A stretch of DNA of 34,312 nucleotides, from contig CADCBS010000008.1 of the NCBI GenBank assembly GCA_902799715.1, positions 1 through 34,312 of the forward strand, read 5' to 3'. The translations under genes were made by a program, and so were the position numbers. Below, one piece after another: positions 1,396-4,780 of the stretch. Below the pieces are notes generated by a model, which was not told the DNA's origin, made no database searches, and saw only the letters and a program-made list of their open reading frames with translations. The DNA is from an uncultured bacterium. GTDB taxonomy: Bacteria; Verrucomicrobiota; Kiritimatiellia; RFP12; UBA1067. Position 1 is the first letter of the stretch; every line of letters starts with the position of its first letter.

Positions 1396-2064
1396 ATGCG
1401 CGGCAGACCAAGAAAGAACATGACGGAGGCGGAACGACACGATTTCAGGCTGGAATTGTCGAAGATGTCTCATGCCAGGGCTCGGCGGATCGCGTGGGGC
1501 AAACAGCACAAATCGCCCCCACGCACATCCGCCATGCCGCCGCCGTCGCTGGACGTATTGCGCGATACCTACCAGCGGCGCAACGAATCGTGCGAGGCGA
1601 TGATCCGGCTTGGTTCGATGATTGAAGACATCGAAGCAGCGCACGGAGTCGGCTACAAGTTTGACAAGTACGACGATAGCGGAACCGAGGACAGTTACTT
1701 CATAGATGAAATTGATGCACAGTGGCAAACGGGAATTCGCGGCTTTCTCAAGGATGCGCCCGATTTGCTCGCCGTGTACAAGACGCTCATGCGCTACAAG
1801 AAACTGTCGGCAGACTTCCGCGATGCAATCGAACTTTACGATCCCAACCCTGCCTCGCTCGTGTTCGATGGCCCGGATGAGCCGTGGCTCGTCCCCATCC
1901 GCGAACGTGTACACAAGTTGCTGGATGGCTGCGGGCGGTCGTTTCGCGAGCTGGCGGCGAGGATTGCGGAGTTTGGACAACAACCGGGGCTTCGCCCCGA
2001 ACCCCGCCTTGTAGGCGCAGGAAGCCGTTCCACCGTCGATGCCGGCAGGAGGCGCGGCGCATGA
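1396..2064 (+). CDS. Unknown protein co-transcribed with the RAYT transposase
   Basis: 222 residues, no family recognised. The N-terminus starts with RGRPRKN, an AT-hook-like basic stretch that may bind DNA, followed by a basic segment to about residue 45. The middle (about 55-190) is acidic and looks largely helical. The last ~30 residues (QQPGLRPEPRL onward) are encoded by a GC-rich hairpin-containing stretch and look like translated repeat sequence rather than a folded domain. ATG 1396 is chosen because the extended -10 ends 7 bases upstream; no Shine-Dalgarno is present, consistent with leaderless initiation. Its stop overlaps the next start as ATGA (2061-2064), so the two genes are very probably translated together. 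A DNA-binding partner or regulator of the transposase is a guess from position only. Confidence 0.6.
   Translation: MRGRPRKNMTEAERHDFRLELSKMSHARARRIAWGKQHKSPPRTSAMPPPSLDVLRDTYQRRNESCEAMIRLGSMIEDIEAAHGVGYKFDKYDDSGTEDSYFIDEIDAQWQTGIRGFLKDAPDLLAVYKTLMRYKKLSADFRDAIELYDPNPASLVFDGPDEPWLVPIRERVHKLLDGCGRSFRELAARIAEFGQQPGLRPEPRLVGAGSRSTVDAGRRRGA
1985..1999. repeat. Short GC-rich hairpin, possibly REP-like
   Basis: CGGGGC / GCCCCG arms (1985-1990 and 1994-1999) around a TTC loop, followed by GAACCCCGCC and a GTAG tetranucleotide at 2011-2014. It lies inside the 3' end of the gene preceding a RAYT transposase. RAYTs act on REP hairpins preceded by a GTAG-type tetranucleotide, so a REP origin is plausible, but only one copy is visible and the GTAG is not placed as in a standard REP. 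Confidence 0.4.
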
Positions 2065-3005
2065 GATTGCAATTCGACAAAGGCGGACGGCGTTTCTTCT
2101 TTCTCACCTTCTGCGTGAGGGGCAGAAAGGCGGTGCTCTCGCGCATCGTGAAGAAGATCGAGCGCGACGGCGAGCCAGGCTACGCCGTTGAACTGACGCC
2201 GGCTGGCGAGGCCATGGCCGCCCTGTGGCGCGGCATCCATGCCAGATGGCCGTTTCTGACTGCGGGCAATTTCATCATCATGCCCGACCATCTGCATTTG
2301 CTGTTGATAGTCGATTACAGCAAGACGCGTGAATTTGACATCCTCGACTGGTTTCAGCATTTCAGGCGAGAAGGGGAAGATTTGCTTGCCCCCTTGATCG
2401 GCGAAAGGGCACCTCTCGTTTGGGAGGATCATTTTTGGCTGTTGCTCGTCAACGCCGGGCGGCCGCTGGCGGCTGTCCGCAAGTATATCAAGATGAATCC
2501 GGCGCGGAAGATGTGGAAGACTCTCAATCCGGATCGCTTTGTCCGCAGAAGCGGGTTGAGACATGCGGTGCTCGATCCGTCGATTTCGTGGACCGCCATT
2601 GGCAACTTGACATTGCTGGCGAATCCGTTTATGTTCCCCGTCCGGCTGACGCGCAAGATGACGGTCGAGCAGCATCTGCCGGAGATAGAGCGGATGATCG
2701 AAAAGGCCCGCCGCGGAATGCTGCCCGTATGCGGATTCCTTTCGCCAGGCGAGAAAGAGCTAGAGCGACGCCTGCGGCAAGAGCCGTTCGCCCGATGGAT
2801 CAAGACTGTCGCGCACGGTCTTCCGCAACGGTTTGATCCGACGGTCGAGGATTCGCGGTTCCTTGCAGACGGCCGCCAGTTGATTCTCAGCTCGTTCCCA
2901 AGCGATGTACCGGTATTCCCCGTAAACTACGACAACTGCCATCTGATGAACGCAAGGAACGAGGCGTTGTGCAGAATGGCGACTGGGGAGGAAGAGGAAT
3001 GGTGA
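2061..3005 (+). CDS. REP-associated tyrosine transposase-like protein (Y1/HUH family) with C-terminal extension
   Basis: 314 residues. The HUH metal-binding motif is visible as MPDHLHLLL (His77, His79). The likely nucleophile is Tyr142 in YIKMNP, the position of the Y1 tyrosine in TnpA_REP proteins. The intervening WEDHFW segment also fits the family. Such enzymes cut and rejoin single-stranded DNA at REP hairpins, typically as single-copy domesticated genes. Residues from about 170 on form an extension not needed for the Y1 fold; it contains SPGEKELERRL and ADGRQLILSSFP, a pattern I associate with accessory C-terminal regions of RAYT-like proteins, but I cannot name a domain. The start is ATG 2061, overlapping the previous stop; the frame is open further upstream (to 1884) but that part lies under the preceding gene. 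No inverted terminal repeats of an insertion sequence are evident. Confidence 0.8.
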   Translation: MRLQFDKGGRRFFFLTFCVRGRKAVLSRIVKKIERDGEPGYAVELTPAGEAMAALWRGIHARWPFLTAGNFIIMPDHLHLLLIVDYSKTREFDILDWFQHFRREGEDLLAPLIGERAPLVWEDHFWLLLVNAGRPLAAVRKYIKMNPARKMWKTLNPDRFVRRSGLRHAVLDPSISWTAIGNLTLLANPFMFPVRLTRKMTVEQHLPEIERMIEKARRGMLPVCGFLSPGEKELERRLRQEPFARWIKTVAHGLPQRFDPTVEDSRFLADGRQLILSSFPSDVPVFPVNYDNCHLMNARNEALCRMATGEEEEW

Positions 3006-3071: not shown

Positions 3072-3935
3072 GTGAATTCATACCATTATGGAAATCCCAA
3101 CAATTCTGCTTCATGGGAACATGCGACAAGCATTTTCGCGGCCCATGCGTCGGTTAATAGCAAGAAGACATCGTCATTGCCATTAGTACAATTTTGGAAG
3201 CCAAATCGTAGCACGAGAGGCTTGTCAAAAATGGCAGAGGTTTTTCTTGAAAAGTGCGGGCTACCATTAAATTTAGGCGAACCAAAGTTTTGCTTTGAAT
3301 ATCCTGTGCCCGTAAATGGTGGTAAGGGAAAGGCTTCAATGACGGATTTGATGATACTTGCCGATAACTATGCAATAGCGATAGAGGCAAAGTGGACGGA
3401 ATGTAAACATAAGTACGAGTTTATCGGGGATTGGGAAAACTCTGGCGACGCAGTAAATCACAAAAAGGTTTTGAATGGGTGGATTGCATACATTGATGAA
3501 TATCTTAAAGATCGGGGGTGTAAGCTGAAAATGAAAAATGCCGAAGCGATAAAAGAGATACCGTATCAGTTATTGCACAGGGTCGCATCCGCGTGTCATG
3601 CCGCAAACGAAGGGAACAAGGCAACTGCGGTTGTTGTGTATCACCTGTTTTATGATTCTGGTAAAGGTGGAACAGAATCCGCTATGAGTAATAATTATAA
3701 GAATAAACTCGGGGAATGGTTTTCAATGATGTTTGAGCCGGCCGATGAAAGGGAACTTCCAATCGCTTTCCATGTCATATTGACTGAAGTTAAGTTGCCG
3801 TCGAATGACTCTGATGTTGGAAAACGTTTTGCCGACCTAAAAAGGAGAGATTATAACGACATTTTTCTGTTGATGCAGGATAAAGATGTATATTCTTTTG
3901 AGTCGTGTGTCCGCGTGGGGAATGGCAATCCCTGA
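3072..3935 (+). CDS. Probable PD-(D/E)XK nuclease-like protein
   Basis: 287 residues. The segment TDLMILADNYAIAIEAKW carries Asp92 followed after 12 residues by Glu105-Ala-Lys107, the D...ExK signature of PD-(D/E)XK nucleases on two hydrophobic strands; acidic residues in the helix MAEVFLEKC (about 54-62) fit the extra glutamate often found in the first helix. Restriction-like and DNA-repair nucleases share this fold, so a defence or mobile-element function is possible, but the specific family is not recognised and no methyltransferase is nearby. The start is GTG 3072 with AGAGGA 7 bases upstream. The gene is strikingly AT-rich, with many ATT, AAA and GAT codons, in contrast with the core genes after 5000, which points to recent transfer. 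No partner gene overlaps it; a hairpin follows at 3962. Confidence 0.55.
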   Translation: MNSYHYGNPNNSASWEHATSIFAAHASVNSKKTSSLPLVQFWKPNRSTRGLSKMAEVFLEKCGLPLNLGEPKFCFEYPVPVNGGKGKASMTDLMILADNYAIAIEAKWTECKHKYEFIGDWENSGDAVNHKKVLNGWIAYIDEYLKDRGCKLKMKNAEAIKEIPYQLLHRVASACHAANEGNKATAVVVYHLFYDSGKGGTESAMSNNYKNKLGEWFSMMFEPADERELPIAFHVILTEVKLPSNDSDVGKRFADLKRRDYNDIFLLMQDKDVYSFESCVRVGNGNP

Positions 3936-3961
3936 CCATCCATTCAAACTTTGACCACTGC

Positions 3962-3993
3962 CAAGCCCCTAAATCGCAAGGTTTCGGGGCTTG
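3962..3993 (+). terminator. Hairpin after the nuclease-like gene, probable terminator
   Basis: Arms CAAGCCCC (3962-3969) and GGGGCTTG (3986-3993) pair perfectly over 8 bases with a 16-base loop that can pair further as AAA/TTT. A weak T-rich tail (GTGTTTT) follows to 4002. It separates the AT-rich gene from the sigma-54 promoter that begins at 4002. Confidence 0.6.
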
Positions 3994-4001
3994 AGGTGTT
4001 T

Positions 4002-4017
4002 TGGCACGGAGATTGCT
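4002..4017 (+). promoter_or_regulatory. Sigma-54 (RpoN) -24/-12 promoter
   Basis: TGGCACG-GAGA-TTGCT (4002-4017) matches the sigma-54 consensus TGGCACG-N4-TTGCW without mismatch; the GG (4003-4004) and GC (4015-4016) are exactly 10 bases apart. Transcription would start near 4028, directly before the ATG at 4031. Sigma-54 promoters need an AAA+ enhancer-binding activator; no such gene lies in the window and no activator site was identified. Confidence 0.75.
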
Positions 4018-4030
4018 ATTGTAATTGTGT

Positions 4031-4780
4031 ATGAAAACAGAGAATGAGATTACGGTGCGGATGGAATCATGCGGCGGGTGCCGGGTTGAGAAGATGCCGC
4101 TGGTTGAAATGAAGGACACGCTCGACAACGGGGGGCGCGTCACGTTGCTGATACGCCACGCGGAGCGTCCGCCGCTCGATCCGGGCGACAGGACTTTCGG
4201 AGCGAGCCTGTCGCTCACGGGAAACGGCTGGCGCTGGGCGCGCTGCTTCGGCTTGATGCTGGCGAACAACCTCCTGCCAAAGTCTGTCGCTTTCTATGCA
4301 AGCGAGACGTTCCGCACACTGCAGACGGCATGTGCGATGGCAATGGGACTTGACCTCGTCGGAACAGGCCAGTCAATCGAGCGCAAGGTGCGGCTTGATC
4401 CGATTCTCGGAGGCGAGTCGCCGTTCTTCGGCGCAGTTGAAGAGCGGATGGCACTCGCGGCGGAAGGATGCTACCGCGAGCGCCTGAACGATTACTTCCG
4501 CACCGGGACACAGCAGGGATTCAAGCCTTTGAAGCCCGCAGCCGATCTCATGGAGCGGCATCTGGACGGCCTGCACGACAAGGACTGGCCGCTCGTCGTG
4601 GCAGTCACGCACGACATCAACGTCGCGGCGTTCCTCGCGGCACGCGGCGTCGTGGAATCCTTCACGGACGAGACATGGCCGGACTATCTCGAAGCCGCCG
4701 CCATCATCAAGAAAGCGGATGGAGAAGCAAAGTACATCTACTTCCGCTGGAACCAAGATATGGGCGCAATCAGTTTCTGA
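4031..4780 (+). CDS. Histidine phosphatase (phosphoglycerate-mutase-like) family protein
   Basis: 249 residues. The RHG-type motif appears as [10 protein letters not shown] with the probable phospho-accepting His43; Arg95 in [10 protein letters not shown] and His194 in AVTHDIN fit the other active-site residues of the branch 1 histidine phosphatase superfamily. A SLTGNGW segment fits the family's usual 'LT..G..qA' region. The substrate cannot be told; SixA-like, sugar-phosphate or broad phosphatase activity are all possible. An N-terminal CGGC (residues 14-17) precedes the domain and is not part of the usual fold. ATG 4031 is preferred over the TTG six bases earlier because the latter would lie upstream of the predicted start of the sigma-54 transcript. 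No Shine-Dalgarno is close to the ATG. The gene appears monocistronic between the hairpin at 3962 and the promoter at 4980. Confidence 0.8.

Follow-up and report, generated by a model that had tools for sequence, protein, structure and literature searches.

The activator RtcR combines CARF, AAA+ and HTH domains, and in the rtcBA RNA-repair operon, as far as the available parts of two reports go (Hughes 2020, PMC7790460; Kotta-Loizou 2022, PMC9650030), it has an upstream activation sequence ahead of a sigma-54 promoter. RtcR-like CARF-AAA+-HTH proteins have been found near restriction systems, with sigma-54 activation of the downstream genes predicted (Makarova 2014, PMC4012209), and RtcR homologues accompany CoCoNuT defence superoperons, for which an upstream activating sequence was suggested (Bell 2024, PMC11090510); in the sections accessible, both of these papers expect RtcR-like proteins to turn on the defence genes beside them via sigma-54. 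Defence and accessory genes are costly if left on, and little is understood of how scattered, horizontally acquired genes come to obey a single signal of infection or damage.

This study focused on a sigma-54 promoter in a window of 34,312 nt, the whole stretch of DNA analysed, from an uncultured member of the Kiritimatiellia. We propose, with a probability of roughly 0.6, that it is one member of a dispersed sigma-54 regulon of accessory genes under an RtcR-like activator. No such element was described in the literature covered (titles and the starts of abstracts, with most subscription papers outside reach), and searches for Kiritimatiell together with sigma-54 or RpoN returned none. That RtcR-like proteins control adjacent defence operons had already been predicted, and the scattered cassettes seem new; as far as these searches go, so are the specific dyad, the fixed geometry in which it stands to a hairpin and a sigma-54 box, and its occurrence in front of many dispersed gene groups.

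The promoter and the phosphatase gene

The first-pass annotation had recognised a full RpoN consensus with correct GG-N10-GC spacing just 5' of the ATG of a histidine phosphatase gene, and this holds (Table 1): GG lies at 4003-4004 and GC at 4015-4016, and the ATG (4031-4033) follows the box by 13 nt. The bare motif proves little, because its looser versions are not enriched in the window (3 sites with two mismatches, against a shuffle mean of 3.47) or in the genome's own assembly, G000 (172 contigs totalling 2.55 Mb, completeness about 90%), where one mismatch gave 17 sites against 20 for the reversed control, and TGGCN7TTGCW gave 22 against 38; motif counting alone was rejected as evidence there. 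The window holds the sole exact copy of TGGCACGN4TTGCW in the assembly (reversed pattern, 0) and the only exact copy of the hairpin arm plus box, a combination that with up to three mismatches gave 13 sites against 23 for its control. Sigma-54-dependent transcription starts about 10-14 nt after the -12 element, and since this geometry places the expected start some 3 nt before the ATG, the phosphatase mRNA, beginning near 4028, would be nearly leaderless.

Table 1. Features at the left end of the window (PF, Pfam; NF, NCBIfam)
Feature	Position	Strand	Basis or remark
DnaE finger-domain fragment with a DnaB-like tail, near contig end	125-1387	+	PF17657 184.5 bits
222-aa ORF of the same module	1396-2064	+	similar ORF in G034 and G038
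REP-associated tyrosine transposase-like ORF, start uncertain	2064-3005	+	NF047646 30.2 bits, E 3.5e-7, below cut-off 80
DUF6946 protein, PD-(D/E)XK-like by eye	3072-3935	+	PF22187 40 bits, cut-off 27
Candidate activator-binding dyad	3924-3959	+	left half-site 3924-3938, right half-site 3945-3959
Inverted repeat CAAGCCCC...GGGGCTTG, 8-bp outer arms, GCAA loop	3962-3993	+	direct reading
Sigma-54 -24/-12 promoter TGGCACG-N4-TTGCT, 16-mer TGGCACGGAGATTGCT	4002-4017	+	full consensus match
Expected transcription start	4028-4030	+	sigma-54 geometry, 12 nt 3' of the -12 C and 3 nt before ATG
Histidine phosphatase superfamily protein, 249 aa	4031-4780	+	PF00328 27.6 bits, cut-off 23.6

Of the 113 further genomes of the family, 9 encode a close relative of the phosphatase (59-88% identity); with G000 they span five genera, and genomes with an orthologue include Kiritimatiellae from goat rumen, goat ileum and sheep rectum; 81 further family genomes have only a looser paralogue (identity up to 43%). 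This patchy distribution of close orthologues suggests horizontal transfer. A paralogous phosphatase with 36% identity also lies in a 464-aa open frame of the own genome (C26:15301-15939, L011). Promoter conservation was scored on 10 close orthologues, the own gene included, and not on 14, as L033-L036 were taken to be contigs of G033, G022, G058 and G067. Although the upstream genes differ, GG-N10-GC is present upstream of all 10, at 13-16 nt from GC to ATG in nine and 8 nt in G067, and the -24 part reads TGGCAYG in eight, TGGAATG in G022 and TGGCATT in G058. Across the ten orthologue-bearing genomes TGGCAYGN4TTGCT occurs 87 times, against 10 for the reversed pattern.

RpoN is encoded in the own genome (PF04552, 175 bits) and in eight of the nine others with an orthologue, no match being found in G033 (91% complete), and enhancer-binding proteins are represented in the own genome by seven PF00158 matches, three of them strong (E 6e-39 or better). 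Neither a missing rpoN nor an unconserved motif, the two findings that the first-pass annotation had set against its own reading, was seen for this genome. Sigma-54 control is supported by the RpoN and by the promoters retained in the close orthologues, and we are highly confident that the promoter is genuine. The description of the phosphatase as a lone, stand-alone gene does not stand: co-directional accessory genes lie upstream, and its promoter is one of a set of like elements before other genes.

The gene 5' of the phosphatase is of the DUF6946 type in G000 and, by sequence similarity, in G067; it encodes nuclease-like proteins of other kinds, in which an ExK-type motif is discernible by eye, in G033, G022, G058, G095, G108 and G111, so that the DUF6946 slot is occupied by different nuclease-like genes in other genomes, and it is unrelated in G034 and G038. 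Among the cargo proteins compared with Pfam (those of G058, G095, G108 and the second G034 locus, with G022, G033 and G111 left out), only that of G108 scored over cut-off (REase-ARP, 40.7 bits, cut-off 27). By eye, nuclease-like families are swapped in the 3072-3935 slot (L092-L097, L100) while the hairpin and promoter are kept. That second G034 locus (C189; L098:13870-14100) is a truncated copy that retains the hairpin, a box reading TTGTC instead of TTGCT and some 31 codons from the start of the phosphatase, and shows a decayed case.

In several genomes the module comprises a DnaE-like protein, a REP-transposase-like ORF and one or two nuclease-like genes, with the phosphatase ending or bordering it. 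In the window, the transposase-like ORF has no Pfam match, the 222-aa ORF belongs to no Pfam family (RecX model 20.5 bits, far under its cut-off of 253), and the DnaB-like tail of the first ORF scores 17.9 bits with PF03796, below the cut-off of 27. The first ORF looks like the fused remnant of a short DnaE-like gene, of which relatives have a longer version, with the DnaB-like tail in frame.

The 249-aa product is, judged by its sequence, a member of the histidine phosphatase superfamily: PF00328 scores over cut-off (Table 1), PF00300 remains below it (17 bits against 21.7), and R42, H43, R95 and H194 (the RH motif, the second Arg and the second His) are invariant in the five sequences aligned. 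A sequence search of solved structures gave no credible match, the AlphaFold model was too poor for use (pLDDT 40.5), and the PADLOC defence library matched neither the phosphatase nor the DUF6946 protein. A downstream start at aligned codon 22 (ATG, GTG, TTG or CTG in the 10 orthologues) was considered as a possible alternative and is argued against by two length differences before it that are in frame (3 and 6 nt) and by an excess of third-position changes between close orthologue pairs (23, 12 and 36 differences at codon positions 1, 2 and 3 in 100 codons). Over all pairs the bias is weak (414, 436 and 514 in 876), so the N-terminus may be loosely constrained. Behind one of the related phosphatases lies a double-AAA protein (L096:10100-12355) that scores 136 bits with the NCBIfam model for the anti-phage ATPase IteA, below the cut-off of 510.

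The composite element and the genes behind it

On sequence comparison, the window motif is the end of a composite of about 110 bp, consisting of an imperfect dyad, a hairpin of variable sequence and the sigma-54 box. It is the dyad and hairpin, beyond the motif first recognised, that tie the promoter to a regulator. In the window the left half-site is degenerate and overlaps the TGA stop (3933-3935) of the upstream gene; TGACC occurs at 3933 and 3952, 19 bp apart, and the composite pattern matches at 3933-4017. With the half-site model at fixed positions the left half has six mismatches and the right two (p=0.005, 200 shuffles), and a free dyad scan of the window with up to six mismatches gave no match.

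Two TGANC repeats about 19 bp apart are found upstream of many TGGCAYGN4TTGCT sites, and in 18 of an initial set of 20 elements the second repeat lies 46-49 nt ahead of TTGG. The composite pattern has 37 copies in 18 of 161 genomes of the order, spread over seven genera and two families, against one for the reversed control. The half-site model fits 43 of 77 sites at p<=0.02 when sites fetched by the composite pattern are included and 28 of 61 without those loci, these sites having been made unique by identical 76-mers only, so that related copies are counted repeatedly. Elements other than that of the phosphatase have longer leaders, and by a loose pattern 25 of 43 show a ribosome-binding-like site. 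That a shared element and a regulon exist seems to us well supported. A viral origin of the element was considered and rejected, as IMG/VR yielded no match to a slightly stricter composite pattern and no confirmed relative of the phosphatase.

The hairpins differ in sequence between elements while occupying the same place. In 30 non-redundant dyad-positive spacers the mean minimum free energy (MFE) is -18.0 and the mean z -2.83, with an MFE of -8 or lower in 26 and z of -2 or lower in 18, and 4 of the 30 fold weakly; in 34 sites without the dyad the corresponding values are -8.3, -0.52, 15 and 4. No Rfam family scored over the gathering threshold in the window, L129 or L096. The hairpin at 3962-3993, lying between dyad and promoter, is probably a terminator or insulator.

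Similar elements precede DUF6946, PIF1-like, FtsK-like, AAA+ and phosphatase genes, and dyad-positive sites are followed by FtsK-like, PIF1-like, AAA+ and DUF6946-like genes, phosphatases and several families without a Pfam name. In G095, on the same contig as the phosphatase, like boxes precede a PIF1-like helicase gene (104.5 bits) and a DUF6946-like gene that stays under the family cut-off (23 bits against 27), and in G108 one stands ahead of the module's opening gene. By eye, the same islands also contain a GmrSD-like gene and further defence-like genes. In two genera the same island element and gene start (L135, G034:C277; L136, G111:C175) are identical over the stretch compared, reflecting either recent transfer or cross-binning. 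Nearly the same start sequence, GTATGAAAAATGA, follows the boxes of two unrelated genes in G108 (L097:177 and L097:5627, contig C460), and because it follows a different gene's box there, the near-leaderless start may have been copied along with the promoter.

Sigma-54 boxes also precede GlnN-, GltB- and GdhA-like genes (L140, L141, L044; by eye), one of them beside a GAF-type activator, and these probably represent a nitrogen regulon of the same family. They share the -24/-12 box with the window element but differ in having other upstream sites and no dyad.

Candidate activators and alternative readings

The three strong PF00158 proteins of the own genome are a GAF/NifA-like protein on contig C41, an NtrC-like protein on C9 that adjoins a kinase-like ORF (both names by eye), and an RtcR-like protein on C45. 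The last scores over cut-off for both the CARF-like RtcR domain (PF06956, 65.9 bits) and the AAA+ domain (PF00158, 130.3 bits), and its 319.4 bits against the RtcR equivalog NF038308 lie below the cut-off of 650; it is classed only as RtcR-like because it has GAASGIA at the position of the GAFTGA loop. This loop normally contacts sigma-54, and its replacement makes activation by the C45 protein doubtful; the protein may not activate at all. The RtcR-like proteins of G022, G035, G038 and G041, near relatives of one another, carry GDFTGA, and no recognisable GAFTGA was found in those of G020 and G033 and in one of the two of G004; G031 gave no motif for this comparison, and G013 and L198 lacked a usable frame.

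The C45 gene is not beside rtcBA; on its sigma-54 side it is flanked by a 100-aa ORF, ClpP and an AAA+ protein. A 36-bp dyad, TGTTCACAATTTGAC-ATGGTG-GTCAGATTATGAACA, is situated 0.5 kb upstream of the start of the RtcR-like gene and at -77 of TGGCACGCTAAATGCT, its halves 21 bp apart with 0 mismatches each, in the same frame as L129:4513, the island element with the best score. Oriented away from the RtcR-like gene, the operon that follows this dyad comprises the 100-aa ORF, ClpP (268 bits) and the AAA+ protein, which has 43% identity (429 bits) to an AAA+ protein of G095 and whose family, by eye, comes directly behind island elements in L129, L148, L156 and L167. A like small ORF and AAA+ protein (by eye) lie behind dyad and box in G022, G029, G035 and G038, at 0.4-1.3 kb from the RtcR-like gene and with an extra 250-aa ORF between in G022, G035 and G038. 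An RtcR-like gene that adjoins a sigma-54 operon encoding a small ORF and an AAA+ protein is seen at L207 (the own C45), L206, L210, L211 and L216.

The dyad is present near 6 of 16 divergent RtcR-like loci (G000, G022, G029, G035, G038 and G041) and missing from the other 10; it was found near 1 of 320 shuffled loci and near none of the 30 canonical rtcR loci compared, which were shorter (2.1-3.6 kb against 4.3-6.1 kb). These tests are not blind, because the half-site model, based on three RtcR-like loci (G000, G022 and G035), postdates sight of the island elements, and those three of the six dyad loci had already been seen when it was written.

Elements and RtcR genes also co-occur. Counting as element-bearing the 18 genomes with the composite pattern plus G022, G058 and G067, which qualify by their phosphatase promoters (the others were judged by the composite pattern only), any RtcR is present in 15 of 21 element-bearing genomes against 32 of 140 others (Fisher 2e-5), and a divergent RtcR-like gene in 8 of 21 against 7 of 140 (8e-5), both values being raw and uncorrected for genome size and relatedness. 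For the strict 18 genomes the latter comparison becomes 6 of 18 against 9 of 143 (p 0.002). On this evidence we lean, by a narrow margin over even odds, towards the RtcR-like protein as the regulator.

The promoter and element could be real sigma-54 controls but with the dyad read by another enhancer-binding protein, such as the NifA-like protein of C41, the NtrC-like protein of C9 or one absent from the assembly, the operon beside the RtcR-like gene being then a mere target or the RtcR-like protein a decoy. The translations of the C41 and C9 proteins do contain the canonical GAFTGA that the RtcR-like protein lacks, and many element-bearing genomes have no divergent RtcR-like gene (13 of 21, six of them without any RtcR); the assemblies are incomplete, yet one of the genomes cited in this connection, G034, is 95% complete. 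Against this, the dyad recurs near RtcR-like genes and is absent from the canonical rtcR loci compared, and the four sites that a nitrogen activator would serve (by eye, those of the GlnN-, GltB- and GdhA-like genes and of the GAF-type activator) misfit the dyad (p 0.06 to 0.30). We regard a different activator as rather unlikely, if deserving of attention.

It is improbable, in our view, that the block mainly marks where a mobile cassette ends or recombines, perhaps through the REP-transposase-like protein, with the sigma-54 match secondary. The hairpin, the accessory genes, the transposase-like ORF, the exchanged neighbours and the truncated second copy in G034, with its hairpin, box and first codons, are all what such a cassette might leave; but the hairpin varies in sequence while the dyad-to-box distance and the box are constant, which is the pattern of a regulatory site. 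Moreover, start codons follow the box, the ribosome-binding-like site of the loose pattern being present in 25 of 43, and at the own RtcR-like locus, where dyad and box are both present, the spacer folds only weakly (MFE -6.7). A chance match to the consensus, which the lack of enrichment of the bare motif in the own genome would allow, can practically be discounted, because all 10 close orthologues keep GG-N10-GC, TGGCAYGN4TTGCT stands at 87 against 10, and the composite pattern at 37 against 1.

Proposed control and comparison with known systems

Genome comparison brought out the conservation of the promoter, the composite element with its enrichment, the hairpin, and the recurrence of the same dyad near RtcR-like genes. 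From these we infer, for the regulon under an RtcR-like activator, how binding, activation, the signal, the terminator and the phosphatase's substrate might fit together. RNA polymerase with RpoN would wait at the promoter, and the divergent RtcR-like activator, with its CARF sensor, AAA+ ATPase and helix-turn-helix, would bind the dyad, whose half-sites lie about 78 and 57 nt before TGG. By analogy, the CARF domain could sense RNA fragments from damage or infection, upon which the activator would open the promoter and a nearly leaderless mRNA for the histidine phosphatase would be made. The hairpin most likely halts read-through from the co-directional upstream genes and so keeps the switch tight, a role in line with the weak fold at the own RtcR-like locus, which has no close co-directional upstream gene.

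A more specific form of this proposal is offered tentatively, as we put it at somewhat short of even odds: the unit of about 110 bp would be a plug-in alarm cassette, spread before unrelated genes of accessory islands in Kiritimatiellae and answering in trans to one RtcR-like sensor of RNA damage. Its parts, on the same tentative footing, would be the dyad for the CARF activator, a terminator hairpin, the sigma-54 box and often a near-leaderless start; its targets, with similar reserve, would be dispersed defence or DNA-handling genes (DUF6946, helicase, AAA+, FtsK-like and phosphatase).

If the regulon exists as proposed, RtcR-like CARF activators run a dispersed set of genes with a readable address, the dyad, beyond the adjoining operon. 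The promoter would then be a sequence handle for finding new accessory and defence genes, the signal sensed by divergent CARF domains would become testable, and the histidine phosphatase, so far without a role, would be placed in that response.

Compared with the rtcBA/RtcR system, as far as the accessible parts of its descriptions allow, the likeness lies in a sigma-54 promoter with a candidate upstream site for a CARF-AAA+-HTH activator; the RtcR-like protein of the own genome matches RtcR models (PF06956, 65.9 bits; NF038308, 319 bits, below the cut-off of 650). The differences are the many scattered targets other than rtcBA, the hairpin between dyad and promoter, and a dyad found at 0 of 30 canonical rtcR loci. 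With the RtcR-like systems linked to restriction and CoCoNuT, likewise known here from parts of the two papers, the present one shares nuclease-like and AAA+ genes. In those systems one activator heads an adjoining operon, whereas here small gene groups carry their own element, and in the six genomes where the strict pattern and a divergent RtcR-like gene occur together the elements lie on other contigs than the activator.
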